From the NCBI GenBank assembly GCA_027623315.1, contig JAQBYD010000003.1, forward strand, positions 62,001-126,000: DNA of 64,000 bases, read 5' to 3'. The position numbers and the translations under genes are program-made. Positions 1,462 through 24,302 of this stretch are shown here, in pieces. This DNA comes from Verrucomicrobiota bacterium. Lineage in GTDB: Bacteria; Verrucomicrobiota; Kiritimatiellia; CAJWTS01. Under the pieces are notes generated by a model. It ran no database searches. It was given only the letters and a program-made list of their open reading frames with translations, and had not been told where the DNA came from. Position 1 is the first letter of the stretch; the number at the start of each line of letters is the position of its first letter.

Positions 1462-1467
1462 GGTTGA

Positions 1468-4773: not shown

Positions 4774-4806
4774 CGAATGCTCCCTGGCTACGGCCCCAAG
4801 CAAGGT

Positions 4807-6560: not shown

Positions 6561-7001
6561 TCAAATGCGCAGAACGATCATTCGTCGCGCGACCAGAGAG
6601 GCAGACATCAGCAACGGTGCTTGGCGTGCGACGCACACTGCGTTCGCCCGGCCATCGCGAGCTACTCTATCATTCAGGCCGCCTGACTGCGATGTGTGGG
6701 GCAGATGGTTCTTAGCCGAAAGCGAGTGTCTCGCTCCGGACGACGAAAGCAACATAGCGTCCGATGAAAGCGGCACGTACACACAATCTCCGCCGCTGTC
6801 GATACAGGCGGCGGCACGCATGTCGCACTCGCCATGCTGTCGGTGATACGGGACCTCCTCAGAGTCCCGGCAGGTGCCGGCACACGCCATTTCCAACGCA
6901 ACATCACCATCGGCACAGATACAGATCCCCAGCCCCGAAACCGTTGTCCCCGCAAAGCAGAGCAACACCAGCCAAGAGATTAGACGGGGAAAGCGGTTCA
7001 T
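6561..7001 (-). CDS. Cys-rich exported protein heading RND module 1 (CxCADGDVALE family)
   Basis: I do not recognise a named family. The product is 146 residues with an N-terminal signal sequence (MNRFPRLISWLVLLCFAG), then GICICADGDVALEMAC, several spaced cysteines (CRDSEEVP, CDMRAAACIDSGGDC), the stretch VPLSSDA, and a C-terminus ending ARRMIVLRI. The gene at 14525-14959 is a clear paralogue: it is 144 residues, shares C-x-x-DG-x-(V/I)A-x-E, EVP, DCV and SSD, and ends QRTIVLRI. Both sit directly upstream of an RND efflux set, so a periplasmic metal-binding or sensing role is likely by context. The start at 7001 is well supported by AAGGAGA 8 nt upstream, and it overlaps the preceding small ORF by ATGA. 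Confidence 0.7.
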   Translation of the reverse strand: MNRFPRLISWLVLLCFAGTTVSGLGICICADGDVALEMACAGTCRDSEEVPYHRQHGECDMRAAACIDSGGDCVYVPLSSDAMLLSSSGARHSLSAKNHLPHTSQSGGLNDRVARDGRANAVCVARQAPLLMSASLVARRMIVLRI

Positions 7002-7177
7002 CGTGCATTCTCCTTCGACAGAAGCCCAGGCCCGGCTTCTGCTCCTGTGTCGCGTGCCAGGGAATAGAAGACGAGTTTCCATTTCTGTCGATTCTCGAGA
7101 AACCCCTCCGTCACCAATGTCCGAATGCTGTCACGGAACCGCTTGCCTGTCAACAGATTCATTGAACCGTCTTTCAT
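6998..7177 (-). CDS. Possible small winged-helix protein or regulator fragment
   Basis: This is a 59-residue ORF starting MKDGSMNLLTGKRF. The stretch RDSIRTLVTEGFLENRQK followed by WKLVFYSLARD looks like the recognition helix and beta-wing of an ArsR/MarR-type winged helix (compare HLKVLREAGLV...VYYRLA). It is too short for a complete regulator. Its stop overlaps the ATG of the Cys-rich gene (ATGA), and its own ATG overlaps the stop of another open stretch upstream (acidic frame, 7180-7350) that lacks a normal start codon. The pair could be a decayed or frameshifted regulator, or a leader reading frame. The similarity is judged by eye only. Confidence 0.33.
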   Translation of the reverse strand: MKDGSMNLLTGKRFRDSIRTLVTEGFLENRQKWKLVFYSLARDTGAEAGPGLLSKENAR

Positions 7178-7365
7178 TCTTCGTTCGAGCTCAGCGCGCC
7201 GCCTTGTTGCAACCAGGTCGCACCGCCCCGGCATATCGCCGCCAGTATCGACACGTCCGCCTCTTCCGAACCTTTGGCAAATGCTTCGCCGTCGTGGTCA
7301 TACGGGGATATTTCATCCTCCTCATTCCGTAACGCATTCCTCTGTCCGCCTTATTGCCCCTACCT
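7178..7365 (-). other. Intergenic stretch with an open acidic frame lacking a start codon
   Basis: This lies between the BamE-like gene and the small winged-helix-like ORF. One minus-strand frame reads a protein-like sequence including ISPYDHDGEAFAKGSEEADV and ending LSSNEE, whose stop overlaps the next ATG. No ATG, GTG or TTG opens this frame after the preceding TAA, so it is either a pseudogene remnant or chance. A second frame with SD-like AGAGGAATG gives an Arg/Lys-rich 48-residue peptide that looks like a shadow. Confidence 0.3.
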
Positions 7366-8049
7366 CTACTCAAGTGCTCTGTGATCTTGCCGCAAGGCCT
7401 CCATTTCCTCCGACAGGATCTCACGCTCGCGCCGATAGCGCCTCTTCAGCCGGCTTATCCCCGTCGCGTGCAACTTTCGGGTCACATTCTGGATTTCCTG
7501 TTCGAGCTCTGCGATTCGCGCCTCCAACGCGCCCTTTTCTGCCGCGAGGACTTCGCGCCGCGCCGTGGCAATCTCGTTGGTCACGGGAACGTCCGGACGG
7601 GCTTCCTGGAGCTCGAGCCAGTAGGACAACCGCTGATCGGGCGACAACTTCTGAAGAGCAGAACTCTCTGTGCCTTCCGATCCGTCGTGAACGGCCTCTC
7701 TGATCCTTTCGTTCAATTGCCCTTTTCTGGACGCCTGCCGTGCCACCGCCTCGTGGCGCATCCGCTCCTCTTCTTCTCTCATTTCCTCTACGCCACGTAG
7801 CCTGATCAACGAGACGACCCCATTCGCAAAATCAACGGATCCTCTCTCGTAAAAGAGCGTTTCGCTCTCGCCCGTCACCATTTGGCCTCGCGGCTTTCCG
7901 AGCTGTTGAATGACCTGCGCCTTGCTCTCACCAAGCCTGACCGTCTCTGTCGCCAAGCCCACGCTCAACGTCGCGCAGAACGCCACTGCGACGAATCGAA
8001 ACCATGTTCGAGGATTTCTAGTCGTCTCGAGTCTGAATCCGTTCATCAT
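7366..8049 (-). CDS. Exported BamE/SmpA-like plus coiled-coil protein of unknown function
   Basis: The product is about 227 residues. An N-terminal signal sequence (FVAVAFCATLSVGLA) precedes a short domain VRLGESKAQVIQQLGKPRG...ETLFYERGSVDFANGVV. That pattern (G-x-S-x-x-x-V-x-x-x-LGKP, then a beta strand and a FxNGxV turn) is typical of SmpA/OmlA/BamE-type folds. The rest is strongly charged alpha-helix, with long coiled-coil stretches at about residues 85-115 and 165-227. It is the last gene of RND module 2, directly after the PII-like gene. GGAGGAG abuts an ATGATG, so the exact start (8049 or 8046) is uncertain. The function is unknown; a role in outer-membrane assembly or periplasmic scaffolding is only a guess. 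Confidence 0.65.
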   Translation of the reverse strand: MMNGFRLETTRNPRTWFRFVAVAFCATLSVGLATETVRLGESKAQVIQQLGKPRGQMVTGESETLFYERGSVDFANGVVSLIRLRGVEEMREEEERMRHEAVARQASRKGQLNERIREAVHDGSEGTESSALQKLSPDQRLSYWLELQEARPDVPVTNEIATARREVLAAEKGALEARIAELEQEIQNVTRKLHATGISRLKRRYRREREILSEEMEALRQDHRALE

Positions 8050-8091
8050 CTCCTCCGTTCTTGTTTTCTTCTACAATGCGCAAACGCGCGT

Positions 8092-8436
8092 TCACCACAC
8101 CGCCGCGTCACCGCGGTCCCCGGTTTGGATGCGCAGGGCATCCTCCACCGGAGAGACATACACCTTGCCGTTGTCCGGCAGCCCCGTGTGGGCTTTCTCC
8201 CTGATCGTTTCCAAGATCTCCTCAACTCGTGACGCCGGGCAGACGATCTCCATCCGCACAGATTTCGGGAACCCGTGGAATGGGGTGTGATCGGAATGCT
8301 GCGAGTGCTCGCGCGATCCACTGCCGATGCGCTGCACCTCCGAGATACTTGCGCCCGGAAAGCCTTCGATTTCATGCAGAGCGAAGATGACATCGTCCAG
8401 CATGTTCGGCTTTATGAATGCAACAATACATTTCAT
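8092..8436 (-). CDS. Divergent PII-family protein associated with metal RND efflux (PII-NG type)
   Basis: This 114-residue protein has the PII/GlnB frame: it begins MKCIVAFIKPNMLDDV, continues with an SEVQRIGSGS strand-turn, and ends VYVSPVEDALRIQTGDRGDA like the C-terminal PII signature. The T-loop differs from GlnB/GlnK: it is His/Ser-rich (GSREHSQHSDHTPFHGFP) and lacks the uridylylated Tyr51 and its context. A divergent PII group (PII-NG) is known to be encoded beside heavy-metal RND genes. It lies 16 bp after the stop of the CzcA-like gene in the same direction, with a GGAAGG site upstream. It is more likely to act on the pump or sense ligand or metal than to regulate nitrogen. Confidence 0.82.
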   Translation of the reverse strand: MKCIVAFIKPNMLDDVIFALHEIEGFPGASISEVQRIGSGSREHSQHSDHTPFHGFPKSVRMEIVCPASRVEEILETIREKAHTGLPDNGKVYVSPVEDALRIQTGDRGDAAVW

Positions 8437-8452
8437 CTCTATACCTTCCTGC

Positions 8453-11400
8453 TTAGTCTACTTGTTTTCGCTCCATCCGCTCTTCTACCCAGACGTAAAC
8501 CGCCGGGATCACGAAGAGGGTGAGCAGTGTTGATGTTGTCAGCCCGAAAACGACGACTGTCGCCAGGGGCCGCTGTACGTCGGCGCCAATCCCTGTTGCG
8601 AGCAGCAACGGCAGGAGTCCGAGAACCGTCGTCATGGCGGTCATCAGCACCGGCCGCAGACGCAGCTCGGCGCCCTCTGTCACTGCTTCAGCGACTGACT
8701 TGCCTCGCTCGCGCAGATCGTTGAAGTACGTCACGAGCACCATCCCGTTCTGCACGGCAATTCCGAACAAGGCAATGAAGCCCACTGAGGCCGGTACCGA
8801 GAGATACGATCCCGTGATGAGCAGGCCAAGAATCCCTCCAATCAGGGCCAGCGGAACGTTGACGATGATGATCAGCGCATGCCGCATCACCCCGAACGAC
8901 ATCCAGAGCATCACAAGCACCAGGCCGATCACCGTCGGCACGATGATCGTCAGCCGCTTCATTGCGCGTTGCTGGTTCTCGAATTGCCCGCCGTACTCAA
9001 TCGTGTAACCCGGGGGCAGCTCCACTTTCTCCGCAATGCGGGTCTGAATGTCCGCTACAACACCGCCCAGGTCACGTCCTCGCACATTGCCCTGCACGAT
9101 CCAGCGCCGCTGGTTCCTCTCCCGGTTGATCTGGATTGGCCCCGTGACCTGTCGGACATTCGCGACTTGCGACAACGGAACGGAGAACCCGCTAATGGTC
9201 GGCACCAGGATGTTTCTCACCGCCTCCGGATCAGACCGATACTCCTCCTGGAAGCGCATGTGGATCCCGAACCGCCGCGTGTGCAGGTAGATGCTGTCGA
9301 TCACTTCACCACCGACCGCCAGCTCGACCATTTCCATGATCTCACTGACGGTCACGCCGTAGCGGGCGCAGGCGGCGCGATCCGCAACGATCTGCACCTG
9401 AGGCTGCCCGAAGCTTTGCTCCGAGGACAGGTCGACCAAACCGGGAATGTTGTCGATGGCCCCCCGGACCTCCTCAGCCTTCTGGCGCAGCACGCTCAGA
9501 TCCTCACCATAGATCTTGATGGCGAGCTGGGCCCTGATTCCCGAGAGCAACTCGTCGAATGCATTCTGAATCGGCTGTGTGAAGTTGAGCTGCACACCGG
9601 GGAACGGCTTGAGCCTGGCACCTATCGCTTCGATCAGCTCTTCCTTGCTGTCAAGCTCGCCCCATTCATCCATCGGCTTCAGCTCGATGTGCACCTCGGC
9701 GTAGTTCACCGGGTGAGGGTGGCTTCCCGCCTCCGGTCGCCCGACGCGCGAAATGGTTTCGTCGACGGCATCGAACTGCACAACCTCTTTCTCCATCTCC
9801 ATAATCAGCTTCGTGCCTTCCTCCAGAGATATCGAGGGTGACATCGTCACGCCGATCAGGATCGAGCCTTCCTCAAGCGTCGGGATGAACTCAGTCCCCA
9901 GTTTCGGGACGAGCGCCAGGCTCCCGACCAGTGCAGCAACCGCCACACCCATCACCGCATACTTGAAGCGCACCGCACCGGCCAGCAGGGGACGGTAGGC
10001 CGCTTTCAATACACGCACGAGCGCAAGCTCCTTATGGGGCGCCTGTTTGAGCAGGAAAAGCGACAATACAGGCGCGACAAGTACCGCCACAAGCAGCGAC
10101 CCCAGCAACGCAAATGAAATCGTGAACGCCATCGGCGCGAACATCTTCCCTTCCACTCCTTCAAGCGTGAAGAGAGGGAGGAACACGATGATAATGATCG
10201 CGATCGAAAACACAATCGGCCGGTTCACTTCCTTCGCGGCATCGTAGATGACCATCGCCTTGGACTCACCCCGTGCATGGGGTTCACCGAGATGACGGAA
10301 TAAATTTTCCACCATCACGATCGCACCGTCGCCAAGCATCCCGATGGCGATCGCAATACCTCCCAGCGACATCAGGTTTGCAGAAATTCCCCGCACACCC
10401 ATGCAGAGCACTGCAACCAGTGCACAGATTGGAAGCGACAACGCCACAATGAACGCCGTCCGCAAGTTGCCCAGGAAGAGCCCGAGCGTTACGACCACCA
10501 GAATGCTGCCAATCAACAGCGACTTCTTCACCGTCCGGGTCGCGTTCCGAACCAGTTCTGCCTGCTCGTAATACGGAATCAACGTCACACCCTCGGGCAA
10601 CGCCTTCTTCACTTCCGCCACTTTCCCATACAGACGCTCGATCACCTGCGACGTGTTCTCACCGAACAGCTTCAGAACCATGCCCGAGACCACTTCTCTC
10701 TCGCCGTTGAGCGTCACCACACCACGGCGAATTTCGTTTCCGTAGGCCACTTCCGCCACATCGGAAAGTAGAACAGGCCGCCCATCGTCTTCCTTCACAG
10801 CGATGTTCTGGATGTCATCCAGACTCTCGACCAGACCGATACCGCGTAGCAGGTGCTCCTCAGAGCCCAGCACGAGGAACTGTCCGCCAACATTGCGGTT
10901 GTTCTCTCTCACGGATTCAACCAGGTTTTCCAGCGTGAGGTCGTACTTCCGCAAGGCATTCGGGTTTACACGAATCTGGTACTGCAACACATGTCCGCCA
11001 ATCGACAGGATCTCCGTCACACCGGGCACCGTCTGAAGCTGGAATTTCACAACCCAGTCGTTCAATTCCCGCAGCCAAGTATCGAGTGGCTTTCCTCCCG
11101 TATCGACCACATCGGGGTCGGCCTCCAGGTAGTAGAGGAATATCTGTCCAAGCCCCGTAGAGATTGGCCCAAGTGTCGGTGGCTCATCCGTTTCGGGAAG
11201 CTCCGCCATCACGCTTGCCAGGCGTTCGCCGACAAGCTGCCGGGCAAAGTAAATGTCGGTGCTGTCCTTGAAGTAGACATAGATCACCGCCATCCCAAAC
11301 GCTGACGTTGACTTGATCTGCGTCACACCCGGCAGACCATTCATGGACGACTCGATGGGATATGTGATCAGTCGCTCGATTTCTTCAGGGGCCATCCCAT

Positions 11401-11560
11401 GGCCTTCGGCGAAGACCGGCACCATGATGGGCGAGATGTCAGGGAAGGCGTCGACCGGCATGCGCTTGTATTGCACGACACCTATGCCGAGCACGGCAAG
11501 GACGGCGAGCAGCACAAGCCCCGGAGTCTTCAATGCAGATTCAGTGATTCTGTTTATCAT
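8453..11560 (-). CDS. CzcA/CusA-family heavy-metal RND pump (module 2)
   Basis: This is an HME-RND inner-membrane pump of 1035 residues. The N-terminal helix is followed by RMPVDAFPDISPIMV, a standard family segment. TM4 reads AIAIGMLGDGAIVMVEN with A405, D411 and E418, so the first CzcA Asp is replaced by Ala as in CusA-like pumps while DGA...VEN resembles CzcA. The methionine triad of CusA is missing (EEGSILIGVT, HPVNYAE and DELLSGIR at those sites). Substrate choice is therefore unclear, and a divalent metal is most likely. The start at 11560 has GAGGTG 6 nt upstream. Partners are the adaptor upstream, TolC before that, and the PII-like protein downstream. Together they form a complete tripartite set. 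Confidence 0.92.
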   Translation of the reverse strand: MINRITESALKTPGLVLLAVLAVLGIGVVQYKRMPVDAFPDISPIMVPVFAEGHGMAPEEIERLITYPIESSMNGLPGVTQIKSTSAFGMAVIYVYFKDSTDIYFARQLVGERLASVMAELPETDEPPTLGPISTGLGQIFLYYLEADPDVVDTGGKPLDTWLRELNDWVVKFQLQTVPGVTEILSIGGHVLQYQIRVNPNALRKYDLTLENLVESVRENNRNVGGQFLVLGSEEHLLRGIGLVESLDDIQNIAVKEDDGRPVLLSDVAEVAYGNEIRRGVVTLNGEREVVSGMVLKLFGENTSQVIERLYGKVAEVKKALPEGVTLIPYYEQAELVRNATRTVKKSLLIGSILVVVTLGLFLGNLRTAFIVALSLPICALVAVLCMGVRGISANLMSLGGIAIAIGMLGDGAIVMVENLFRHLGEPHARGESKAMVIYDAAKEVNRPIVFSIAIIIIVFLPLFTLEGVEGKMFAPMAFTISFALLGSLLVAVLVAPVLSLFLLKQAPHKELALVRVLKAAYRPLLAGAVRFKYAVMGVAVAALVGSLALVPKLGTEFIPTLEEGSILIGVTMSPSISLEEGTKLIMEMEKEVVQFDAVDETISRVGRPEAGSHPHPVNYAEVHIELKPMDEWGELDSKEELIEAIGARLKPFPGVQLNFTQPIQNAFDELLSGIRAQLAIKIYGEDLSVLRQKAEEVRGAIDNIPGLVDLSSEQSFGQPQVQIVADRAACARYGVTVSEIMEMVELAVGGEVIDSIYLHTRRFGIHMRFQEEYRSDPEAVRNILVPTISGFSVPLSQVANVRQVTGPIQINRERNQRRWIVQGNVRGRDLGGVVADIQTRIAEKVELPPGYTIEYGGQFENQQRAMKRLTIIVPTVIGLVLVMLWMSFGVMRHALIIIVNVPLALIGGILGLLITGSYLSVPASVGFIALFGIAVQNGMVLVTYFNDLRERGKSVAEAVTEGAELRLRPVLMTAMTTVLGLLPLLLATGIGADVQRPLATVVVFGLTTSTLLTLFVIPAVYVWVEERMERKQVD

Positions 11561-11573
11561 AATGACACCTCAA

Positions 11574-12944
11574 TCAATGACCGTGTCCGGCATGGGAGCC
11601 GAGATTACTTGTGATGACAGTGGCCTTGAGCTGGAACGCCCCGTTCGAAACGTACTTCATTCCCGGCTCCAGTCCGGCCGTCACCTCGACGTTCACGCGA
11701 TCACCCCGTCCGAGCGTCACAGACGTCATCTCGAACCCGCCCTTACGCTCCACAAAGACGACGTCACGGCCCTCAATGTTCTGTACGGCATTGCGTGGAA
11801 TCACCACTGCCAGGTTCTCCTCGGCAGTACTGCAGAATCCCGTCACAAAGGTGCCGGGCATCCAGCGGCCATCACGGTTATCCAGAACCACCCGGGCCGT
11901 CGCGGATCGCGTCGATTCCTCGACGAAAGGCGTCACCATGGCGACCACACCGCGTGCTTGCACCCCGCTGTGATCAACCCGCAACGTCACGTCCTGGTGT
12001 GGACGCACGGCATCCAGGTTCTTGGTGTACACAGTCAGATTCACCCACACACTGCTCGTGTCGACCACCGTGAAGATGTCCGTGTCCGCCTCCAGGCCCT
12101 CGCCCAGCGAGATGTGCTTCGCTGTTATGACTCCAGCTTGGGGCGATCGGATCTCGTATCGCGCAATGGCCTCGTCAGGCTCGGTGTCCAGCGTCTCAAT
12201 CACCTGCTCAGAGAGCCCTAGTGCGTGCAGTTTCTGATCTGCCGACCGCAACGCAATCCGCGCCTCTGCGAGCACCTGTTGCGCCTCTAAGAAGTCCTGT
12301 TCGGATGACACCTGCTTTTCGCGTAGCGCCGTCTCCCGTGCGAAGGTCTTCTCCGCCAATACCCCGCGGGCCTTTGCGGCGAGGTACTCCGACTTTGCGT
12401 CGGCCAGTTCCCGACTCTCGATGACGGCCACGATTTCGCCAGCCTCTACGAGGTCGCCCACGCTCTTGTGGACCTCACGGGCGACTCCGGCCACGCGCGG
12501 AACCATATGCACAACAAGATCCTCGTTGAACACGACCTCGCCCGGCAGGCTGACTTCATTCCGCAGACTGCCCGGCCCGGCAGGCCGCACGGCAATCCCG
12601 AAACGCTTCCGTTGCTCCGGCGTCAGCCGGAGCCCGCTCCCTTCATCCGCCTGTTCGGCGTGGCCTGCCCGCCCGCTTGCGGAGCTTGCGGCGTGGTCGT
12701 GGCCGGAATGGTCTTCCTCCCCGGATTCCTCATTATGCTCGGTGTGGCCCTTGCCCTCATGTTCTGCGTCCGCGTCGTCCGCATGGGCGTCGTCACTTTC
12801 CGCATGGGCGGCGTGGTCGTGCCCTGCGTGACTGTCCTGCGCATGCGACTCCGCCGCTACGCCGACGCCCCACATCAGGGCCAGCCCCGGCACGGCCAGT
12901 AAGCTCAGTCTCTTGTTCAGCAAATCCCGAATCGGTTTCATCAT
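11574..12944 (-). CDS. czcB: RND periplasmic adaptor with His/Asp-rich N-terminal domain (module 2)
   Basis: This CzcB/CusB-like membrane-fusion protein has about 456 residues. A signal sequence (LAVPGLALMWGVGVAAES) is followed by about 70 residues rich in His, Asp and Glu (SHAGHDHAAHAESDDAHADD, later EEDHSGHDH), probably a loose metal-binding tail. The conserved core follows: MVPRVAGVAREVHKSVGD (barrel-sandwich), a helical hairpin, IRSPQAGVITAKH, and a C-terminal domain ending SHAGHGH. The start at 12944 follows the TolC stop by one base, with AAGGAT about 6 nt upstream. It connects the downstream pump with the upstream-encoded TolC. Confidence 0.9.
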   Translation of the reverse strand: MMKPIRDLLNKRLSLLAVPGLALMWGVGVAAESHAQDSHAGHDHAAHAESDDAHADDADAEHEGKGHTEHNEESGEEDHSGHDHAASSASGRAGHAEQADEGSGLRLTPEQRKRFGIAVRPAGPGSLRNEVSLPGEVVFNEDLVVHMVPRVAGVAREVHKSVGDLVEAGEIVAVIESRELADAKSEYLAAKARGVLAEKTFARETALREKQVSSEQDFLEAQQVLAEARIALRSADQKLHALGLSEQVIETLDTEPDEAIARYEIRSPQAGVITAKHISLGEGLEADTDIFTVVDTSSVWVNLTVYTKNLDAVRPHQDVTLRVDHSGVQARGVVAMVTPFVEESTRSATARVVLDNRDGRWMPGTFVTGFCSTAEENLAVVIPRNAVQNIEGRDVVFVERKGGFEMTSVTLGRGDRVNVEVTAGLEPGMKYVSNGAFQLKATVITSNLGSHAGHGH

Positions 12945-12945
12945 T

Positions 12946-14355
12946 CTAATCCTTCTTTTTTCCATTCATCAGTACTTCAATACTTGTGCCCGTAATCCCT
13001 TGGATATCGGCCAACGCGGTGTGATAGTCGCTCAATGCGTCCACCAGCGCGCCCTTGGCCTGGAATAGCCCCCGCTGGGCGTCGAGCATATCCAGGAATC
13101 CGAACTTTCCCTGTTGGTATCCCTCGTGAGCCGCCGCGAAGGCCTGCTCCATGGCGGGAACCACCTTCCCTCGCAGGGCTTCCACGCGCTGGTAGGATGT
13201 CGTGAGTCCCGCGTGGATCTCCGCCAGTTCGGCAGCCAGGGCTAACTCCGCAGCCGACCGTTCCGCTTCCGCCTTCGAGAGCCCGTACGCGGCGGCGGCA
13301 ATGTTGCCCTGGTTTCGATCGAAGAGGGGCAACGGCAGGCCGACACCCAACGCCAGCGAATCTGTCCCGTCCTCCTCAAAGCTCTGAAACCCGATGGCGG
13401 CCGTCACATCCGGCACCCTAGCCGATTTCTCCAACGACAACGCGGACCGGCGCATTCGGATTTCCGCATCCCATCGTGCAAGATCCGGGTTCAACGCGAG
13501 GCGGGAACGCAGGGCGGTCATCGAAGGAACCGGGCCAAGCACACCGTCCAAATGGCCTTCGACGTTCGAGAACTCTGCCCGCTCACCCCCCCACATCGCT
13601 GCGAGTTTCCTACGGGCAACACGCAGCACGTTGTTGGCCTCGAACAAGTCCATGCGCACCATCTCCAGCTCGGCCTCACTCTTTGACGCCTGGAGAGGGG
13701 GCTCCTTGCCTGCCTTCACTCGTTCCCTCACGGCACGACTCGTCTTCTCCGCGAGCTGCACTGCCGCTCCTGCCAACTCGAACCGCTGCTGGGCCACGAT
13801 CACGGCCGTGAAGCGTCGCGCCGTCTCGGTGAAGACGTCGAGCCGCTTGCTCTCATAGTCCCAGCCGGCCAACTCGCCTTCTGCTTCGGCAACCCGTGTT
13901 CGCCAATGCCGCTTGCCTCCAAGCTCGAAGAGTTGGCCGAGAGTCACAGACGTCTCGGCGGCGTCGAGGCCTTTGCCGTCGCGGTCGTACTCATCCAGCC
14001 CGAACTCAAGTTCAGGGTTCGGTAGCGCCCGAGCCTGTAGCAATCGAGCTTCGACGGCCCGCAGATTGTGCGAAAACGCCGCAAGCGACGGGTTGCGAAG
14101 CAATGCCGCTCCCAACGCCTGTTCCAGCTTCAATGTGCCGGTCGGCGCGGCCGGTTGTTCGTCAGGATTCATCTCGTGTGCCTCAAAGCCGGCGGTCGGA
14201 TAATGCGCCCCTAAAGGGCGCGCCTCCGGGAGCGCCATATGCCGGCCGGCCGGCCGGCCGGCTTGCGAAGCTTGCGGCCGGGTGGCGGCGCACCCCGTGA
14301 TGAGCAGGCTTGCGGAACCTCCCAATACTGCATTCAGTAAGACTCTTCTTATCAT
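12946..14355 (-). CDS. czcC: TolC-family outer-membrane efflux lipoprotein (module 2)
   Basis: This is the outer-membrane channel of the module 2 tripartite pump, about 469 residues from ATG 14355. The start gives a clean lipoprotein signal (MIRRVLLNAVLGGSASLLITGC) and has GGAG 6 nt upstream; longer in-frame starts (TTG at 14397, ATG at 14373) fit worse. The protein shows the two OEP repeats typical of TolC/CusC, with long alpha-helical stretches and NPSLAAFSHNLRAVEARLLQ and NPDLARWDAEIRMRRSALSL at equivalent places of the two halves. It is probably shared with module 1, which lacks its own channel. Confidence 0.9.
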   Translation of the reverse strand: MIRRVLLNAVLGGSASLLITGCAATRPQASQAGRPAGRHMALPEARPLGAHYPTAGFEAHEMNPDEQPAAPTGTLKLEQALGAALLRNPSLAAFSHNLRAVEARLLQARALPNPELEFGLDEYDRDGKGLDAAETSVTLGQLFELGGKRHWRTRVAEAEGELAGWDYESKRLDVFTETARRFTAVIVAQQRFELAGAAVQLAEKTSRAVRERVKAGKEPPLQASKSEAELEMVRMDLFEANNVLRVARRKLAAMWGGERAEFSNVEGHLDGVLGPVPSMTALRSRLALNPDLARWDAEIRMRRSALSLEKSARVPDVTAAIGFQSFEEDGTDSLALGVGLPLPLFDRNQGNIAAAAYGLSKAEAERSAAELALAAELAEIHAGLTTSYQRVEALRGKVVPAMEQAFAAAHEGYQQGKFGFLDMLDAQRGLFQAKGALVDALSDYHTALADIQGITGTSIEVLMNGKKKD

Positions 14356-14418
14356 TGATTTCTCCATTTCCATCGTGTTCAAACACACGCCTCCCAAAGA
14401 CGTGTGAAAAGTCGGGGG

Positions 14419-14467
14419 GCCTTTGCAGCATCACATGATGGGAAGCCATCCCGACGCTGGCAAAGGC
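14419..14467 (-). promoter_or_regulatory. Stem-loop in the Cys-rich/TolC spacer (candidate attenuator)
   Basis: Outer arms 14419-14429 (GCCTTTGCAGC) and 14456-14467 (GCTGGCAAAGGC) pair with one bulge. Inside them, 14437-14450 (GATGG-GAAG-CCATC) forms a second hairpin. On the transcribed minus strand a GTCGGG segment can pair alternatively with the CCCGAC that follows, just before TTTTC. The element lies between the exported Cys-rich gene and tolC, so it could tune downstream expression. I read it by eye; no folding was run. Confidence 0.4.
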
Positions 14468-14524
14468 ATCGCCATTCGTGTCGATGTAGAATCAACACAG
14501 AAGGCGTAAGCGGCAAAAGGGGTA

Positions 14525-14959
14525 TCAGATACGCAGGACGATCGTCCGTTGCGCGAGAAGGGCATAAGCCGGACCCGGCGGCGCCCCATGTGCGAGCCGC
14601 TGGGTCTTTCGGCAGTCCGCGAAGGCCAACGCCGCAGGACCAGTCGTCAAATCTCTCGAACCCGCGTGTTTCAGTAAGCGATCGTGTCGCACATCCTTCG
14701 TGAAGCGCAACGCTTTGTCCGACGAAATTGAAACATCTACGCAGTCGCCCGCCACGGTCTCCGCGATTCGCGTGATGCAACCCGATCCCCCGGTTGGGAC
14801 TTCGCCCGGATAACTGCATGGCTCACGGTGAACGACCTCAATCGCGATATGCCCATCATCGCCGAGGCACAGCACCATGCCCGAAACACCGGACACCGTC
14901 ATGGCGATGGCGATCAGACAAACCGTTGCTATCTTGGCCCTTTTCAACACAGATATCAT
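14525..14959 (-). CDS. Cys-rich exported protein heading RND module 2 (CLGDDGHIAIE family)
   Basis: This 144-residue paralogue of the gene at 6561-7001 begins with a signal sequence (MISVLKRAKIATVCLIAIAM). It continues with MVLCLGDDGHIAIEVVH, EPCSYPGEVP, a Cys-x-x-Arg, GDCVDVSISSD, and ends PAYALLAQRTIVLRI. I recall uncharacterised proteins with a similar C-x-G-x-DGH-x-A-x-E motif near metal efflux genes, but no function. An in-frame ATG at 15070 has GGGGAG upstream and overlaps the cusA stop, but it would add 37 unlikely residues. The start at 14959 matches the paralogue's length and signal position. Context suggests periplasmic metal binding. Confidence 0.7.
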   Translation of the reverse strand: MISVLKRAKIATVCLIAIAMTVSGVSGMVLCLGDDGHIAIEVVHREPCSYPGEVPTGGSGCITRIAETVAGDCVDVSISSDKALRFTKDVRHDRLLKHAGSRDLTTGPAALAFADCRKTQRLAHGAPPGPAYALLAQRTIVLRI

Positions 14960-14975
14960 TGAGATTGAGGACAAT

Positions 14976-15003: not shown

Positions 15004-15069
15004 AACGCGAGAGCTTCCGAACTGCGCTCGACGTCCCCCCGCAGGCCGGCTCCCGGGTCGCAGGCGTCA

Positions 15070-18000: not shown

Positions 18001-19011
18001 GGCGGCCAGGGGATTGTCACCGTATCGGGCCACGACGACGCCGCCAGCCGCCGGAGCACCTCCCTTGTCGAGCGCGCCACGCCTGGTCGCAGGGCCCAGC
18101 GCCACGGTGGCCACGTGCTTAACGAGGATTGGAATGTTGTCGTTGACCGCGACAACGCTGTTCTCGATGTCGGATACATTCTCGATAAACCCGATACCCC
18201 GAATAAAATACTCCGTTCTGTTCATTTCGAGCGTGCGCGCGCCGACATCGATATTGGAGGCCTTGACGGCATGCGAAATGTGTTCGAGCGTTACGCCGTG
18301 CGCGCGCATCGCATCAGGGTCCACGTCGACCTGGTACTCCTGGACATATCCTCCAATGGAAGCGACCTCGGCCACTCCGTCGGCGGCAAGCAGCCAGTAC
18401 CGCGCGTACCAATCCTGTACTGTACGCAGCTCGGAGAGATCCCACCCCCCGATCGGCTTGCCGTCCGGATCGCGCCCTTCCAGCGTGTACCAGTAGATTT
18501 GCCCGAGCGCCGTGGCATCCGGTCCCAGCGCAGGCGATACGTCCGGGGGCAGCGTGCCGGCAGGGAGGCTGTTCAACTTCTCCAGCACGCGTGTACGCGA
18601 CCAATAAAACTCCACGTCGTCTTTGAATATGATGTAGATGCTCGAGAACCCGAACAGGGAATAGCTGCGGATCGTCTTGACGCCGGGGACACCAAGCAGG
18701 GCGACCGTCAGCGGGTAGCTGATCTGGTCTTCCACGTCCTGCGGGGAACGCCCCATCCATTGCGTGAAGACGATTTGCTGATTCTCACCGATGTCAGGAA
18801 TGGCATCGACGGGAACGGGGTAGCGCGTGATGCCACCCGCTTCCCACTCGAATGGAGCCACCAACCAGCCGCCGAACATGATCGCAATCATGAACAGCGC
18901 GACGACGAGCTTGTTCTCCAGGCAGAAGCGGATCAGCTTCCCGATCGCGGAGCTCTGCTCCGGAGAGGCGGCAGGTGGTAGGTGTTTGGTGGTAGGTGTC
19001 AGGGAGTCCAT
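15070..19011 (-). CDS. cusA: Oversized CusA-type Cu/Ag RND efflux pump (module 3)
   Basis: The pump has about 1313 residues; typical CusA is ~1047. TM4 reads AIAIGTIVDMGVVICEN (D497, E504), the CusA pattern. The three substrate methionines are kept: M775 in LFMPTT, M825 in ISMVET and M914 in IVMLAS. They sit with the expected Glu (E827) and Arg (R911); CusA K678 is Arg here. This supports Cu(I)/Ag(I) export. The extra length includes a hydrophobic block with additional membrane segments at about residues 585-725 and a charged periplasmic insertion at about 835-900. The start at 19011 has AGAGGA 7 nt upstream and overlaps the four-helix-bundle gene by 13 bp. Its first codons (PTTKHLPP) are made of a flanking repeat. 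Confidence 0.93.
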   Translation of the reverse strand: MDSLTPTTKHLPPAASPEQSSAIGKLIRFCLENKLVVALFMIAIMFGGWLVAPFEWEAGGITRYPVPVDAIPDIGENQQIVFTQWMGRSPQDVEDQISYPLTVALLGVPGVKTIRSYSLFGFSSIYIIFKDDVEFYWSRTRVLEKLNSLPAGTLPPDVSPALGPDATALGQIYWYTLEGRDPDGKPIGGWDLSELRTVQDWYARYWLLAADGVAEVASIGGYVQEYQVDVDPDAMRAHGVTLEHISHAVKASNIDVGARTLEMNRTEYFIRGIGFIENVSDIENSVVAVNDNIPILVKHVATVALGPATRRGALDKGGAPAAGGVVVARYGDNPLAAINNVKKKIEETREALPTKAVVDFALTSRPDVEAFALKNGFEAFEGPVLNHDAWLGWLRSVPRDEWPAWVTTSKVTVVAFYDRTGLIYETLGTLNEAIGQEILVTIIVVLIMVMHLRSSIIISGMLPLSVLLCFVGMKLFGVQANIVALSGIAIAIGTIVDMGVVICENILRHLDEAEPGESPLEIVHRAASEVGGAVLTAVATTVVSFLPVFTMLGAEGKLFKPLAYTKSFALIASILIALTVLPPAAQLLFCGKIRPGRWRSLLNIAIIAVGVVLGAMVAWWAGLALAVFGIYFMLQDRIPERFSRWAPLAASGLAVLVVAVLLTKDWEPLGLELGLLRNLIFVAVLIGGLLGFFKLFQHFYARLLAWCLVHKALFLAVPATLVLFGLTAWLGFDRTMGWLPERVRASGPVSALAHTFPGFGKEFMPPLDEGSYLFMPTTMTHASIGEAIDMLSKQDMAFEAIPEIESAVGKIGRAETPLDPAPISMVETVINYKPEFITDRKGHRVNFRYDRKKGEFQRDEFGELIPDDSGRPYRQWRDHIRTPDDIWDEIVKAAKMPGSTSAPKLQPIAARIVMLASGMRAPMGVKVKGPDLETIETVGLQIERFLKEVPSVQPAAVIADRIVGKPYLEIVPDRVALARYGVLIRQFQDVVEIAIGGRKTTTTVEGRERYPVRVRYQRELRDSIEAMEQIYVSGSGGTQIPITELAHIRYIRGPQVIKSEDTFLIGYIVFDMKAGFAEVDVVEECQAYLQSKIDSGEFTLPRGVSYTFAGNYENQVRAARTLALILPIALFVIFLLIYFQFKSVPTTLLVFSGIFVAWSGGFLMIWLYGQPWFLDFSVFGVSMRVLFQVHTINMSVAVWVGFLALFGIATDDGVIMSTYIAQIMRDRKPTSAGEVREAIIMAGERRVRPCLMTVATTLLALIPILTSTGRGSDVMLPMAIPSFGGMTVVLITIFVVPVLYCWVEEFRLARRGE
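18969..19004. repeat. GGTGGTAGGTG repeat, left flank of four-helix-bundle gene
   Basis: The plus strand reads two copies of GGTGGTAGGTG(T) separated by TTT. It codes for the N-terminus of CusA on the minus strand and overlaps the stop of the four-helix-bundle gene. A related sequence lies in the opposite orientation at 19511-19537, on the other side of that gene, so the two form imperfect inverted flanks. Confidence 0.6.
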
Positions 19012-19496
19012 GGGAAGTCCTCTTCTGCGTTCTGCGTCACCGCAACAGCGTCCGTCCATGCCGGTTGCGCAGGTTCACCTCCATAGGTCGCACGTTCTTC
19101 GCGAACGACTTTGCCGGTGCGGGTTGTCCCTTTCCACTCGCTCAGCGACTGGTGAAGCCCTTCCAACATTCGACCGCATTCGTCGTAGCGTGAATCGAGT
19201 TCGTGAAAACGCTCTTCGGTCAGGTACATCTTGTCCTTGGCTACATCGATGTGATGCTGTGTCTCGCGGACTTCACCCAAAGCCCGATTGATGGCCTCGA
19301 TGTACATGTTGGTGTGGCGGCTTCCCCAACCTTCGGCGATGAGTGCCGGCGCGGAATTCGATGACCTCCTCACCTGTGACCCCAACTCGTACGTTTCGAA
19401 CTTGGGAGAACGAAGTGTTTCGCGATGCACTTCCAGATGCAGCCCCTTAAGCTTCTGATACACTTTCAACTCCCGGAACGAATTCAATTTTGCCAT
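18999..19496 (-). CDS. Four-helix-bundle protein (23S rRNA intervening-sequence/S23 family)
   Basis: The 165-residue product has the hallmarks of the four-helix-bundle family often encoded in rRNA intervening sequences and as stray genes. It begins F-REL-KVYQKLKGLHLEV, then YELGSQVRRSSNSAPALIAE, then YIEAINRALGEVRETQHHID, and a closing MLEGLHQSL. The last ~40 residues (from KGTTRTGK) are low-complexity and run through a flanking repeat. It lies between cusB and cusA, with strong SD AAAGGAGA, and is the only member of the operon with no obvious metal role. Inverted GGTGGTAGGTG-type repeats flank it, which suggests insertion as a cassette. The biochemical function is unknown. Confidence 0.85.
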   Translation of the reverse strand: MAKLNSFRELKVYQKLKGLHLEVHRETLRSPKFETYELGSQVRRSSNSAPALIAEGWGSRHTNMYIEAINRALGEVRETQHHIDVAKDKMYLTEERFHELDSRYDECGRMLEGLHQSLSEWKGTTRTGKVVREERATYGGEPAQPAWTDAVAVTQNAEEDFPWTP

Positions 19497-19510
19497 TTCG
19501 CGAATCTCCT

Positions 19511-19537
19511 TTCCCCTACCACCTACCCCCCAACACC
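19511..19537. repeat. CTACCACCTACC repeat, right flank of four-helix-bundle gene
   Basis: The plus strand reads CCCCTACCACCTACC followed by CCCCAACACC, an imperfect inverted counterpart of the repeat at 18969-19004. It encodes the last codons and stop of cusB (LGGRW) on the minus strand. Confidence 0.55.
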
Positions 19538-21834
19538 TCCCGAATCTCGCCGCACCCCAACATGGCTTCCCCGAAATAGGGATTGCGTGTGTCCTTATCG
19601 TTCTGAATCCAGGTTGCGCCTTCCCCGCCGAGGGCCATCGGGCACTTGAACTGGTACAGCGGCCCCGACGGTGCTCCGAACCGCTTGGCTGCTGCCATTA
19701 TCTGCTCCGACAGCGGCGCCAAGGCCACGCGGCTTGCGGACAGGGCATCCGCCTGCGCCACCTTGGAAATCATGCTCTTCAAAGCATCCGCCTGCGCCAT
19801 CCAGGCCATGTGGTCACCGCCGGTCAGCAAGGTCATGTCTACGGAGGAGAGCGCGGCAAGCGCATCCCTGGCGTTAGCCGTCGCCTTGGCGAAATCGTCC
19901 GCGGCGAGAGCGCCCTGAAGTTCGATATAGCCGTTCACGACTCCCCCGAACTGTGCGAGAAACTCCGGGTTGACTGTGGAATTCGGTTCGACGTGGCGTC
20001 CGTGAGCCGGGTCCATCTTCCTGCGCATCGAGGCGGCATGCCCACGCAGGGCTTCGGCGAGGTGCTTCGCGCCGGTAAGCGTCTCGATGGTACTGCCTTC
20101 CAGCCCGTCGTTCCCCAGGAGCATGGCGTATTCCTTCCACAGCAGTGCCAAATGGCCGCTCATTTCCTCAACGGTAACGGCCTCGACACGATCGCTCAGC
20201 GCAGCGAAAGCGGCATGAATGTCCTTGAGATCCCCGCTTCCCACCGAATCGTCCGCCGCCTGTGTCGCGGACAGCACATCGTGCAACTGGCTCTGCGTCA
20301 ATGCGGACAGCGTCATGCCCGTCATGCCACTTTGATCTTCCGGATTATTCCCCATGGCTGGCTTCGAACCACCGTGGTCGTGTCCACCGCCACCGCCGCC
20401 ACCCTCCGGGGTCATCATGCTTGGCTTCGCGTAGATCTGCAGCTCGGCATCGAGCTTGAAGGCGCCTTTTGTAACCACCCGTTCGCCTTCGCTCAGACCG
20501 CGTCGAACGAGGTAGTAATGCCCCGCACGCGGTCCCAGAACGATCTCGCGGCCCTCAAACACGCCTGGCCTGTCCGGCGACATCACGTAAACGATGGCGC
20601 GTCTGCCGGTGATCAGCGCCGCTGACACGGGGATCACGAGTGGAGCTTCCTCGCTGTCGCCGAGCACGTACCCCAATGATTCAGCGCTGACGAGGGGCAT
20701 TCCGCAAATATCGCAGTCGCCAGGTGCGCTCTTAACAATCTCCGGATGCATGGGACTGATCCATTTGCCGGCGAGCTCTGAGGAGAACACCCTGCCCCCC
20801 GTCGAAATGTTGGCGCGCACGGTGGCGCGCACAAACATACCCGGTTTGAGATCTCCGGACCGGTTATCCACATTCACGCGCACCTTCACCGTGCGGGTCT
20901 TCTCGTTCAGAACAGGGTCGATGAACGCAATGGTTCCGCGAAAGGTTCGCCCCGGATAGGATTCGGTCTCGAACTCCATGTCTTGACCATAGCGAATCCA
21001 GGAGAGATCCGACTCGTACGCGTCGAGCTTGACCCACACTTGCGACAGATCAGCAATCGTGTAGATGCGCGTTCCCGTAGTCACGTACCCTCCCTCAAGC
21101 GCATTCTTGTGGATGACAATTCCGCTGATTGGGGAGTAGATCGTGAGGTGATCATCCGGTGTGCCACGCTTTTCGATTCCCTTGATCTGTTCTTCCGTGA
21201 GCCCCCACAGCCGAAGTTTCTCACGTGAGGAGACCACGGTGTCTGCGGTGCGATCTTTAACGAGGGGACTGTCGCTGCCCTTCAGGCTCTCGACCGTCTT
21301 AACGGCTTGAATCAACTCTTCCTGCGCGGCCAGCAGTTCCGGGCTGTATATGGAGACCATGTGATCGCCCTTCTTAACTTCCACGCCGGTATAGTCCACG
21401 TAGAGCCGATCCAGTCGGCCAGGCACCCACGCCGTCAGATAGGCCAGCTTGGTCTCGTCGTAGTCTACTTTTCCGACCATTCGGATTTCAGCAGTGGCGA
21501 AACGTCGCTCGACAGGCGACGTTTCGACGTCGGCAAGCGCCTGCGCGGTCCGCGAAAGCTTCAGTTCACGCAGGCTCATCGGAGCGTCATCCGCCTCATG
21601 CGAGGCCATTACCGGGATCAGATTCATCCCGCACTTCGGGCACTTGCCCGGTTCCGGGAGCTGGATTTCCGGATGCATGGAACACGTCCAGAACTTGACT
21701 TTGGCCTCCTGGTCGCCGGCGTGCCTCGATTCGATGTCGGCGGAGCGGTGCCCGGAGCAACCGCGCCCGATGATGCTGCCGATCAGCAGCGCGGCTGCGA
21801 CAATCATGATCATCTTCTTCTTGTTTACCTTCAT
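19516..21834 (-). CDS. cusB: CusB-type RND adaptor with two heavy-metal-binding domains and DUF3347
   Basis: The adaptor has 772 residues, about twice a simple CusB. In order: an N-terminal membrane anchor or signal (residues 8-25); a heavy-metal-binding domain (C51, M53, H54, C65, C68, M70); the adaptor core with hairpin (about 95-345); a second metal-binding domain inserted at about 356-381 (MHPEI, C374, C377); a C-terminal beta domain to ~465; a Gly/His linker (GGGGHDHGG); and a DUF3347-like helical region from ~510 to the end, with the family signature FKCPMALGGEGATW and RNPYFGEAMLGCGE. It passes Cu/Ag to CusA. The ATG overlaps the tolC stop (ATGA), so translation is coupled. Confidence 0.92.
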   Translation of the reverse strand: MKVNKKKMIMIVAAALLIGSIIGRGCSGHRSADIESRHAGDQEAKVKFWTCSMHPEIQLPEPGKCPKCGMNLIPVMASHEADDAPMSLRELKLSRTAQALADVETSPVERRFATAEIRMVGKVDYDETKLAYLTAWVPGRLDRLYVDYTGVEVKKGDHMVSIYSPELLAAQEELIQAVKTVESLKGSDSPLVKDRTADTVVSSREKLRLWGLTEEQIKGIEKRGTPDDHLTIYSPISGIVIHKNALEGGYVTTGTRIYTIADLSQVWVKLDAYESDLSWIRYGQDMEFETESYPGRTFRGTIAFIDPVLNEKTRTVKVRVNVDNRSGDLKPGMFVRATVRANISTGGRVFSSELAGKWISPMHPEIVKSAPGDCDICGMPLVSAESLGYVLGDSEEAPLVIPVSAALITGRRAIVYVMSPDRPGVFEGREIVLGPRAGHYYLVRRGLSEGERVVTKGAFKLDAELQIYAKPSMMTPEGGGGGGGHDHGGSKPAMGNNPEDQSGMTGMTLSALTQSQLHDVLSATQAADDSVGSGDLKDIHAAFAALSDRVEAVTVEEMSGHLALLWKEYAMLLGNDGLEGSTIETLTGAKHLAEALRGHAASMRRKMDPAHGRHVEPNSTVNPEFLAQFGGVVNGYIELQGALAADDFAKATANARDALAALSSVDMTLLTGGDHMAWMAQADALKSMISKVAQADALSASRVALAPLSEQIMAAAKRFGAPSGPLYQFKCPMALGGEGATWIQNDKDTRNPYFGEAMLGCGEIREVLGGRW

Positions 21835-23225
21835 GGTGTCTTCAGTCCTCTTTCTACAGTCTCCATGTCCATCCCGGCCAGTGGACGTCCCACCAGCATT
21901 TCAATCTCGGCCAGTGCGATTTCGCGGTCAACCGACGCCCTCTCATGGGCCAACTGGAACTCCAACAGCAAGCGCTCGGCGTCGATCAGGTTGAGGAAGT
22001 CCACCGAGCCGGCGCGATAGGCCTCCTCGGTGACGTTGAGAGATTGCTCGGCTTGCGGCACCAGGGTCTTTCCGTACAGGTTGATCTTACGGTCCGCGTC
22101 ACGAAAGCGATAGAGGGCCATTCTGAGCGCAGCATCCAACAGGTTTCGGCGGTCGTTTCTGGCGAGCTCAGCGGCTTCACGGCGTCGCGTCGCTTCCCTT
22201 ACGCCCGCACGGTATTTGCCTCGCCACAGGGGTACGTCAATCGCAAGCATCGCCACGACGGGATCTTTTCCACTGCCCGCCATGTCGGGGTTGAGCGCCT
22301 CGCCGGTCTGGATATAGTCCACGCCGAGCATGAAGTCGGGGTAACCTGCGCGGCGCGCCAGCCGAATGGCCTTCTCCTCGCGCGCCACGTCATGCTCAAG
22401 TCCCCTTAACTCGGGATTCTGCCCATGCAGGAGAGCGAACAAATCCTCATCGACAAAGTCGGCACGATGGGCGGGGGCGTTCGTCGGCCATGGTAGCGGC
22501 GCGTCATGGGTCCGGCCCAGCGCCGCGTTGAGGCGGGACGCGACCGGTTGCCGCAGATCCTTCAGCGACCGCACGCGCTCATCCAGCTTACCAAGCTCCA
22601 CCTGCGCCTTGATGACACCGGCGACCGGTGCACCTGCTTTATACTTCGCTTGCGCAACGCTCTCGATACGCTTCATCAGGTCCATGTTCTCTTCCGTTAT
22701 GGCGATCGCGCGCGACAGGTAGAAGTACTCGTAATATCCGCTCTTGACCTGTCGAAAGAGATTGAACTTCATCGATTCGTACCGTTCATAAGCGGCCTTC
22801 GCCTGCTGCGCTGCAATATCCCCGCGCAGGTCCAGGATCCCGAACCACGGAAACATCTGCGCCACTCCAAATTTCTGTTCCTGGGGGCCCACGCGCGTTT
22901 CCACGCTCTCGATGAAGTTCGCATAGGTGACGCGAGGGTCGGGCAGTGCTTTCACCTGGGGAATCTTCTCCAGGGCCGCCAGCCATTGGTGGAAGGCCGC
23001 TTCGAGCCCCGGATTATTCAGGGCCGAGTAGGTCAGGCAAGCGGAGAGCGTGGTCTGTTGCGTAAGGTCCGGCAGGTCCGTGCTGTCACGTGATTGCCTC
23101 CCTTGCTCGTAGGCGGGAAGGGGCCACGCTCGTCCGTCCGCGACGGACTGCCCCCCCACACCGCCGTAGATCCATAGCGCCATGCCGCAGACCCGACTCC
23201 ATGTTCGCCTAGTCAGTGTCGTCAT
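21831..23225 (-). CDS. cusC: TolC-family outer-membrane channel (module 3)
   Basis: This outer-membrane efflux protein has about 464 residues. It shows long helices and two related halves (NPGLEAAFHQWLAALEKIPQ and NPELRGLEHDVAREEKAIRL), and AGSVDFLNLIDAERLLLEFQ near the end, as in TolC/CusC relatives. PDPRVTYANF and MFPWFGILDLRGD match the version found with DUF3347-containing adaptors. I chose the ATG at 23225 because GGAG lies 9 nt upstream; the ATG at 23240 has no ribosome-binding site. It is the first pump subunit of the Cu/Ag module and overlaps cusB by 4 bp. Confidence 0.9.
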   Translation of the reverse strand: MTTLTRRTWSRVCGMALWIYGGVGGQSVADGRAWPLPAYEQGRQSRDSTDLPDLTQQTTLSACLTYSALNNPGLEAAFHQWLAALEKIPQVKALPDPRVTYANFIESVETRVGPQEQKFGVAQMFPWFGILDLRGDIAAQQAKAAYERYESMKFNLFRQVKSGYYEYFYLSRAIAITEENMDLMKRIESVAQAKYKAGAPVAGVIKAQVELGKLDERVRSLKDLRQPVASRLNAALGRTHDAPLPWPTNAPAHRADFVDEDLFALLHGQNPELRGLEHDVAREEKAIRLARRAGYPDFMLGVDYIQTGEALNPDMAGSGKDPVVAMLAIDVPLWRGKYRAGVREATRRREAAELARNDRRNLLDAALRMALYRFRDADRKINLYGKTLVPQAEQSLNVTEEAYRAGSVDFLNLIDAERLLLEFQLAHERASVDREIALAEIEMLVGRPLAGMDMETVERGLKTP

Positions 23226-23320
23226 TTGTTGTCGCTCCATTCACGGTAACCGGCTCGGGTCGGGCTGTCGCGCGCGATCGAGGGCGAAAACATCGCCCCG
23301 ACCGCGCCACGCGATGCCGA

Positions 23321-23728
23321 TCAGTGATCGTGCCCGCTGTGGTCATCTGCTTTCTTGTGGCTGGATTTTTCTTTGTGGGCAGCGCCTTTGATTTGGGCGG
23401 GACTCGCCCCGCCCTTCTGCTTCTCGATCTCCGCGACGAGTTTGGCGACGTACTTCAGCGGATCCTTGTTGAAGTCCTTGAGGCAGCCTTTGCAGCAGAA
23501 CTTGATCTCCTGTTTGAACACCAGGCTCGGCGCTTCTCCCATCGATCCGACCTCTTCGTCCGAGACCAGACAAATTTTCAGCGGGTAGGCGCGGACGCCT
23601 TCCTCAGCGCCGCCGGCCTTCTCTGCAGGCGTACCGTGGTCCTTGTCGTTCGCGACGGCCAAACCGAGCCCAGTCATCAACAGGACTGCCGTGATCACGA
23701 CTGCGATTTTTCGTGTTTCGCTCTTCAT
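23321..23728 (-). CDS. Periplasmic YHS/TRASH-like metal-binding protein
   Basis: The 135-residue product has a signal sequence (IAVVITAVLLMTGLGLAVA), then a YHS/TRASH-type domain: C53 in LKICLVSDEEVGSM, a short strand, then KFCCKGCLKDFNKDPLKYV with C78, C79 and C82. This arrangement binds soft metals in related proteins. The tail is Lys/His-rich and ends HSGHDH. It precedes the tolC-cusB-cusA genes in the same direction, so it probably acts as a periplasmic copper or silver chaperone or buffer. The start at 23728 has GGAGAG upstream. Confidence 0.8.
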   Translation of the reverse strand: MKSETRKIAVVITAVLLMTGLGLAVANDKDHGTPAEKAGGAEEGVRAYPLKICLVSDEEVGSMGEAPSLVFKQEIKFCCKGCLKDFNKDPLKYVAKLVAEIEKQKGGASPAQIKGAAHKEKSSHKKADDHSGHDH

Positions 23729-23930
23729 TCTCTACTCTCCTTTTTGTTTGGGGCGGAGTCAGCACCAAGCCTCCTCCTATTGGAATGGTCGGGGCCAGAC
23801 AGTTCGTCTCGAAACACATCTACGGAGTCAATCGGGGATCGTTCATGGAAGCGATGCCTTAGAGGCATGGCATCCCGAGAGAACAGAACGGCGCGCGACG
23901 GGAACCAGAACGGCTCGTCACGGAAATAAA
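23729..23930 (-). other. Spacer between Cys-rich and YHS genes
   Basis: This is about 200 bp with no credible gene. It holds a small stem (ATGCC-TTAGA-GGCAT, near 23854-23868) nested with GATGCC/GGCATC. No U-run follows on the minus strand, so it is not a clear terminator. Confidence 0.4.
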
Positions 23931-24302
23931 TCAGAGCAGAAAGGCCCGGTGGGCCAGGTACGCAGGGGGCGAGTGGTCCGCGAACGATGCGCGGAGCGAG
24001 CGTACCGAAATCGCGCCGGCAGGCTTGAACGCCGTGATTTGGAGCACGGTCACGGCGACGCGGCCAACCCAGTTGGGTGCGGGCAGGTCATAACCGGGTT
24101 TGTCCTGGGCAGCTTGAAGCCGCTCGAGGCAGCAACTGCAGTCGCCGGGGGCCTCATCGGCATCCGCCGACTGTCCCTCCGCCGTATCACAACACCCATG
24201 CGCCACCGCATCGACGGCAGTCGCCGCCGGCAACGCCACAGCCCTGCACCAGCAGATAGGCAGCAAGCAGAGAATCAGCGCAAATGTTCCGAGCCTCTTC
24301 AT
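23931..24302 (-). CDS. Small Cys-rich exported protein heading RND module 3
   Basis: The 123-residue product has a signal-like N-terminus (MKRLGTFALILCLLPICWC), then HGCCDTAEG and DCSCCLERLQ, two closely spaced Cys clusters, and a C-terminus PPAYLAHRAFLL. The end resembles those of the exported proteins heading modules 1 and 2 (PAYALLAQRTIVLRI, SLVARRMIVLRI), while the Cys region does not align simply. It may be a distant member of the same group or an independent protein in the same role. An upstream in-frame start at 24425 would add 41 residues before the signal and is unlikely. The function is unknown; copper binding is plausible from CC and CSCC. Confidence 0.6.
   Translation of the reverse strand: MKRLGTFALILCLLPICWCRAVALPAATAVDAVAHGCCDTAEGQSADADEAPGDCSCCLERLQAAQDKPGYDLPAPNWVGRVAVTVLQITAFKPAGAISVRSLRASFADHSPPAYLAHRAFLL

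Follow-up and report, generated by a model that had tools for sequence, protein, structure and literature searches.

Two paralogous genes, P0002 and P0003, in a window of 64,000 nucleotides from a Verrucomicrobiota bacterium (contig JAQBYD010000003.1, positions 62,001 to 126,000; the window is this whole stretch) belong to a real, widespread, unannotated and unnamed protein family tied to heavy-metal pumps. Based on sequence analysis, we give a probability of roughly 60% that the members of this family are exported leaders which would detect metal while still being synthesised and regulate translation of the downstream efflux genes. Together with a third gene, P0004, they had been predicted to head three metal-efflux modules, and indeed all three genes exist where they were predicted and each stands at the head of a module with a heavy-metal resistance-nodulation-division (RND) pump of the CusA/CzcA type (TIGR00914; the RND protein of module C marginally below the cut-off).

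14525..14959, minus strand: P0003, exported Cys protein of 144 amino acids, head of module B; signal peptide, VLCLGDDGHIAIE, C48, DCVD, linker, RTIVLRI at the stop
6561..7001, minus strand: P0002, paralogue of P0003 with 146 amino acids, head of module A; ICADGDVALE variant, DCVY, RMIVLRI
23931..24302, minus strand: P0004, exported Cys-rich protein of 123 amino acids, head of module C; CC, CSCC, SPPAYLAHRAFLL end; CutF-like by published rules (PMC9973294)

The paralogy of P0002 and P0003 was borne out by BLASTP (32% identity across 136 amino acids, E=7e-10), and a genome-wide search with P0003 gave P0002 as the sole other credible match (E=2.6e-7). Among the motifs proposed to be common to both, EVP, DCV, SSD and IVLRI are present, but the supposed C-x-x-DG is truly C-x-x-x-DG. 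For P0004, sequence comparison gave no detectable relationship to P0002 or P0003, and it is regarded as an independent head that shares the architecture only.

The family and its association with heavy-metal pumps

A homologue of P0003 in another genome of the same class (E=3e-12) likewise heads an array of genes for an outer-membrane efflux protein, an adaptor and an RND protein, and a profile built from three sequences recovered further members within the phylum. Common to the members is the signature [VI]-h-C-h-G-x-D-G-H-h-x-h-E (h, hydrophobic), which was run as a DNA pattern of 13 residues in the making of which neighbouring genes were not used. At least 116 loci were found in genome contigs, with no match in viral contigs, and the matches listed include Poribacteria, Planctomycetota, Methylococcales, Magnetospirillum, Nitrospirota, Zixibacteria, Calditrichota, Hydrogenedentota, Gemmatimonadota, Verrucomicrobiota, Kiritimatiellia and others. 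Upon translation, nearly all signature loci encode the same kind of protein; the 28-amino-acid L053 has been discarded as a chance match. Scans of the family against Pfam and NCBIfam gave weak matches of single members only, taken as chance, and a sequence search of the PDB and Foldseek gave no match. The original statement that there is no characterised member stands for the P0002/P0003 family; P0004 conforms to the CutF-like rules.

Among the matches listed, 103 of the 116 loci have a gene for an outer-membrane efflux protein, adaptor or RND protein directly downstream on the same strand, as detected by tblastn with the pump proteins of the window as queries, versus 0 of 23 control loci, which are weak or chance matches from earlier searches. 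The neighbourhood enrichment, proposed beforehand as a check, is therefore very strong and lends good support to a function in the handling of metal. Two further loci (L130, L148) gain a downstream pump gene at a looser cut-off, while most of the remaining ones run off the available DNA. At 84 of 89 loci no open reading frame (ORF) of at least 150 amino acids ends on the same strand within 60 nt upstream. A copy on a Methylomonas plasmid, annotated as 'hypothetical protein', stands ahead of genes for TolC, an adaptor, CusA/CzcA and a P-type ATPase.

Two observations on the heads of operons may be added. A Poribacteria-like member (L144) heads a gene for a putative peptidyl-prolyl isomerase/foldase rather than a pump, and in the phylum of the window the head of many RND operons is instead a small exported YHS-like protein with CPVMGGKI...YVCCxGC (L192-L207, L231-L246 and similar loci).

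Protein and RNA anatomy of the candidate leaders

The anatomy of the protein was measured on 54 representatives of less than 40% identity. Conserved are the N-terminal motif, C-x-D (in about half of the representatives in the form CxxCxD) and the last eight residues with the consensus LRTVVLLI, and 36 of the 54 have a Cys seven residues past the Glu of the motif. Between metal motif and tail extends a linker with an identity of 0.07, equal to background, and nevertheless the distance from C(xD) to the C-terminus is confined to 58-75 residues (interquartile range 66-71, standard deviation 3.3; 72 in P0003 and 74 in P0002), whereas the segment between both Cys motifs is shorter (44 residues) yet more variable (standard deviation 5.4). 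Members from Methylococcales, Magnetospirillum and related organisms (L050, L051, L052, L061, L104) carry an additional hydrophobic linker segment with the spacing to the tail retained. In P0004 and nine unrelated-looking heads of its kind, about 63-77 residues separate the end of the Cys clusters from the C-terminus. As exit from the ribosome takes about 35-45 residues (PMC6439181) and crossing of the membrane about 17 residues (PMC9973294), the Cys motif would just reach the periplasm when the ribosome arrives at the stop codon.

A hydrophobic motif conserved at the extreme C-terminus would also suit a protein of the periplasm that, like CnrX or CzcI, associates with a membrane regulator or an adaptor, its tail serving as docking peptide or degron; CzcI heads czcCBA and has been proposed to be a metal-sensing regulator (PMC9973294). 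This role does not predict the features of the RNA described below and is considered highly improbable.

From the stop codon of the head gene to the next start codon the minimum is 73 and the median 121 nt, with none of 101 loci below 60 nt, whereas of 102 other gaps in these operons 93 are shorter than 60 nt, the median being 12.5 nt. Folding ahead of the first pump gene is stronger than in controls (z-score -0.84 versus 0.15 and -0.06, p=1e-7); accessibility of the Shine-Dalgarno region is likewise reduced (p=6e-4). Complementarity to this next Shine-Dalgarno sequence is highest from -5 to +20 relative to the stop of the head gene, where, in 47 representatives, the own arms pair with -11.4 kcal/mol versus -8.8 kcal/mol for swapped arms (0 of 20,000 permutations) and -9.4 kcal/mol for swapped arms matched in GC content (again 0 permutations). 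The own-minus-swapped difference is -2.6 at the stop and -1.6 in the overlapping window just upstream. Furthermore, the arms differ in sequence with pairing retained, as in GAAGCCTCC/GGAGGCTTC and CCTCCG/CGGAGG. This signal of a stem between stop and Shine-Dalgarno sequence is strong at gaps up to 160 nt. Leu codons at the last three positions of the head genes are almost exclusively CTN (85 versus 2 TTR; in the rest of the gene 457 CTN versus 134 TTR, p=5e-7), a bias ahead of the stop which may reflect pairing or codon-specific effects.

That the RNA signal is a property of any Cys protein at the head of an operon has been rejected, since YHS-like heads, many of which are followed by short gaps, display no effect (-0.3, p=0.35). 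For look-alikes of P0004, the comparison of own with swapped arms gave p=0.05 from few loci, some with clearly mispredicted starts.

A leader ORF could also control transcription, either by Rho-dependent termination or by an intrinsic attenuator, instead of the ribosome-binding site. CruR acts by Rho with a gap of 162 nt (PMC9426467), similar to the gaps of 164-202 nt in the window, one of which is strongly folded:

14356..14524, minus strand: leader gap of 169 nt from P0003 to the start of the outer-membrane efflux gene; strongly folded, z-score -3.6
6397..6560, minus strand: leader gap of 164 nt from P0002 to the adaptor start; no excess folding, z-score +1.7
23729..23930, minus strand: leader gap of 202 nt from P0004 to the YHS-like gene; slightly folded, z-score -1.3

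The stem covers the Shine-Dalgarno sequence itself, though, within the range of gap lengths given above, and a scan for terminators was without excess and gave nothing in the P0003 gap, so that control of transcription appears unlikely. Promoter-like sites at window positions 24340-24312 and 14999-14971 (minus strand) end 9-11 nt ahead of the starts of P0004 and P0003; if real, the transcripts would be almost leaderless.

A proposed mechanism of nascent-chain sensing

For the periplasmic protein, a job such as sensing, delivery or protection had been suggested originally. The metal role holds and sensing is favoured among these activities, but by the nascent chain and not by the finished periplasmic protein, because of the tail conserved at the stop, the unconserved linker of near-fixed length, the long gap and, where gaps do not exceed 160 nt, the stem. 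Support from the sequences of the family as a whole extends to the place at the operon head, the anatomy, the almost constant spacing and, again at gaps up to 160 nt, the stem between stop and Shine-Dalgarno sequence; the stall, the binding of metal, the identity of this metal and the direction of the response we infer from there. In the proposed mechanism, the leader would be translated first and its signal peptide would take it into SecYEG. With the ribosome at the stop, the LRTVVLLI-type tail would reside in the exit tunnel, and the N-terminal mini-domain about 70 residues back (V-L-C-h-G-x-D-G-H-h-x-h-E, a further Cys and C-x-x-C-x-D) would be newly periplasmic. Metal bound at this point would delay completion or release at the stop, and the delayed ribosome would cover the start of the stem by which the first pump gene's ribosome-binding site is otherwise concealed, with the consequence that the pump would be made when periplasmic metal is high. 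P0004, an unrelated head that conforms to the CutF-like rules, probably works in the same way.

A finished periplasmic chaperone, scavenger or protectant that passes metal to the pump like CusF or SilE would account for the signal peptide, the conserved Cys/His/Asp/Glu motif and the pump linkage, and an AlphaFold2 model of P0003 displays a small confident hairpin (residues 28-42), followed by a strand (74-77) and a helix. It would leave unexplained a tail conserved exactly at the stop, a linker near-fixed in length and not in sequence, a gap of at least 73 nt and a stem beginning at the stop codon, and the C-terminal third of the same model, including the tail, is of low confidence. This function of the finished protein is therefore regarded as quite unlikely.

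Several observations weigh against translational control by the nascent chain. In none of the three gaps of the window (164, 169 and 202 nt) was a direct duplex of stop and Shine-Dalgarno sequence found and only the gap behind P0003 is unusually folded, so that in the window the mechanism would be backed by protein anatomy and homology but hardly by the RNA, and its final step may proceed there through a different RNA structure or through attenuation. The stem signal at gaps above 160 nt is not significant (p=0.09, n=10). Own-minus-swapped differences elsewhere range from 0 to -1.1 (up to -1.07), and part of the stem effect is thus composition. Start codons, and with them gap lengths, were picked by a heuristic that favours Shine-Dalgarno motifs, and the controls for gap folding include coding sequence. 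Three loci (L109, L132, L144) possess enough DNA, yet no pump gene was detected downstream. Two consecutive prolines (PP) in the last 15 residues occur in 8 of 113 complete members and are absent in 105, as they are in P0002 and P0003; as most members thus are without a proline arrest motif near the end, the LRTVVLLI tail as arrest signal is a guess.

Should nascent-chain sensing prove right, a protein active only during its own synthesis would switch a large number of heavy-metal pump operons in different phyla, and the sensors of such operons would be genes now labelled 'hypothetical protein'. Candidate arrest sequences would gain a tail without known proline motif, and the spacing would offer an in vivo ruler for the reach of the nascent chain needed for periplasmic reading. 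The predictions would be testable in hosts amenable to culture, for instance Methylomonas, in which the gene is plasmid-borne ahead of a CusA/CzcA operon.

The three pump modules and comparison with known systems

The genes behind the heads have been assigned with NCBIfam and Pfam models. In module A, P0002 is followed by a CzcB-like adaptor, a CzcA-like RND protein and a DmeF-like cation diffusion facilitator (CDF) without an outer-membrane gene; in module B, P0003 by an outer-membrane efflux protein, adaptor, RND protein and PII-like protein; and in module C, P0004 by a YHS-like exported protein, an outer-membrane efflux protein, a CusB-like adaptor, a four-helix protein and an RND protein of 1329 amino acids.

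4807..6396, minus strand: CzcB-type adaptor, module A; Cys-rich N-terminal stretch
1657..4803, minus strand: CusA/CzcA heavy-metal RND protein, module A; TIGR00914 above cut-off
535..1473, minus strand: CDF Co/Ni exporter, module A; DmeF equivalog above cut-off
12946..14355, minus strand: outer-membrane efflux protein, first pump gene of module B; PF02321, ATG at 14355
11574..12965, minus strand: CzcB-type adaptor, module B
8453..11560, minus strand: CusA/CzcA heavy-metal RND protein, module B; TIGR00914 above cut-off
8092..8436, minus strand: PII-like protein directly behind the module B RND gene; PF00543
23321..23728, minus strand: small exported YHS-like protein, module C; below Pfam cut-off
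21831..23240, minus strand: outer-membrane efflux protein, module C
19516..21834, minus strand: CusB-like adaptor, module C; HMBD and DUF3347 domains
18999-19496, minus strand: four-helix protein of the 23S rRNA intervening-sequence type between adaptor and RND protein of module C; PF05635
15070..19059, minus strand: CusA/CzcA-type RND protein of 1329 amino acids, module C; TIGR00914 701.1 bits versus a cut-off of 701.45

The Cys-rich N-terminus of the module A adaptor carries repeated CxxC-type motifs ahead of a CusB-like barrel, and the PII-like protein of module B possibly exerts a separate control of the pump. The RND protein of module C is unusually long and was matched by TIGR00914 in five stretches; when it is called from its first start, the end of the gene for the four-helix protein overlaps its ORF.

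Among described systems, the family resembles CutF of Rhodobacter capsulatus, by which copper is sensed during export and a stem over the Shine-Dalgarno sequence of cutO is opened; CutF-like genes often stand ahead of RND outer-membrane genes (PMC9973294). The published rules demand fewer than 150 amino acids, a Sec signal peptide, PP at most 15 residues from the C-terminus and no more than 1000 nt to a following gene on the same strand (PMC9973294). P0004 conforms with 123 amino acids, PP 12 residues from the end and the next gene at 202 nt, its signal peptide being judged from the sequence. The P0002/P0003 family, which would act as CutF does if the nascent-chain reading is correct, is not CutF-like by this definition because PP is missing from the last 15 residues: P0002 has none, and in P0003 it lies 18 residues before the end. 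Nevertheless, CutF and the family have in common a small exported Cys protein, the position at the head of a metal operon, a conserved C-terminus and a stem masking the next Shine-Dalgarno sequence, the latter found at family level for gaps up to 160 nt. They differ in that CutF has CxxxC about 45 residues from the end motif, whereas the family has C(xD) about 70 residues from the end plus the DGH motif.

CruR (DUF2946) combines CxxC, RAPP and Rho (PMC9426467), and arrest at RAPP has been demonstrated in vitro (PMC12992588). Shared with the family are a leader ORF in a metal operon, a Cys motif at fixed distance from a C-terminal motif, an Arg seven residues from the end and a gap close to 160 nt, similar to those of the window. 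Unlike the family, CruR shuts off an uptake gene through Rho with a dispensable signal peptide; 53 members scanned gave no match to PF11162 (DUF2946) at E<=0.1, and the family tail does not end in RAPP. CopL and CzcI, the latter likened by description only, are also small exported metal-binding proteins that head resistance operons; the CopL model NF033807 gave one weak match among the 53 members (E=0.054), so the family does not belong to CopL. From SecM, VemP and TnaC the family differs by metal as the proposed signal and by having no known arrest motif; alike is the control of downstream genes through where the ribosome stands as it finishes a leader ORF. Next to these systems, the chances are even that the family represents a second, proline-free class of metal-sensing leaders, which would stall at or near their own stop via the LRTVVLLI-type tail, would read periplasmic metal at a fixed reach of about 70 residues and would act as a translational switch for heavy-metal RND pumps in many bacterial phyla.

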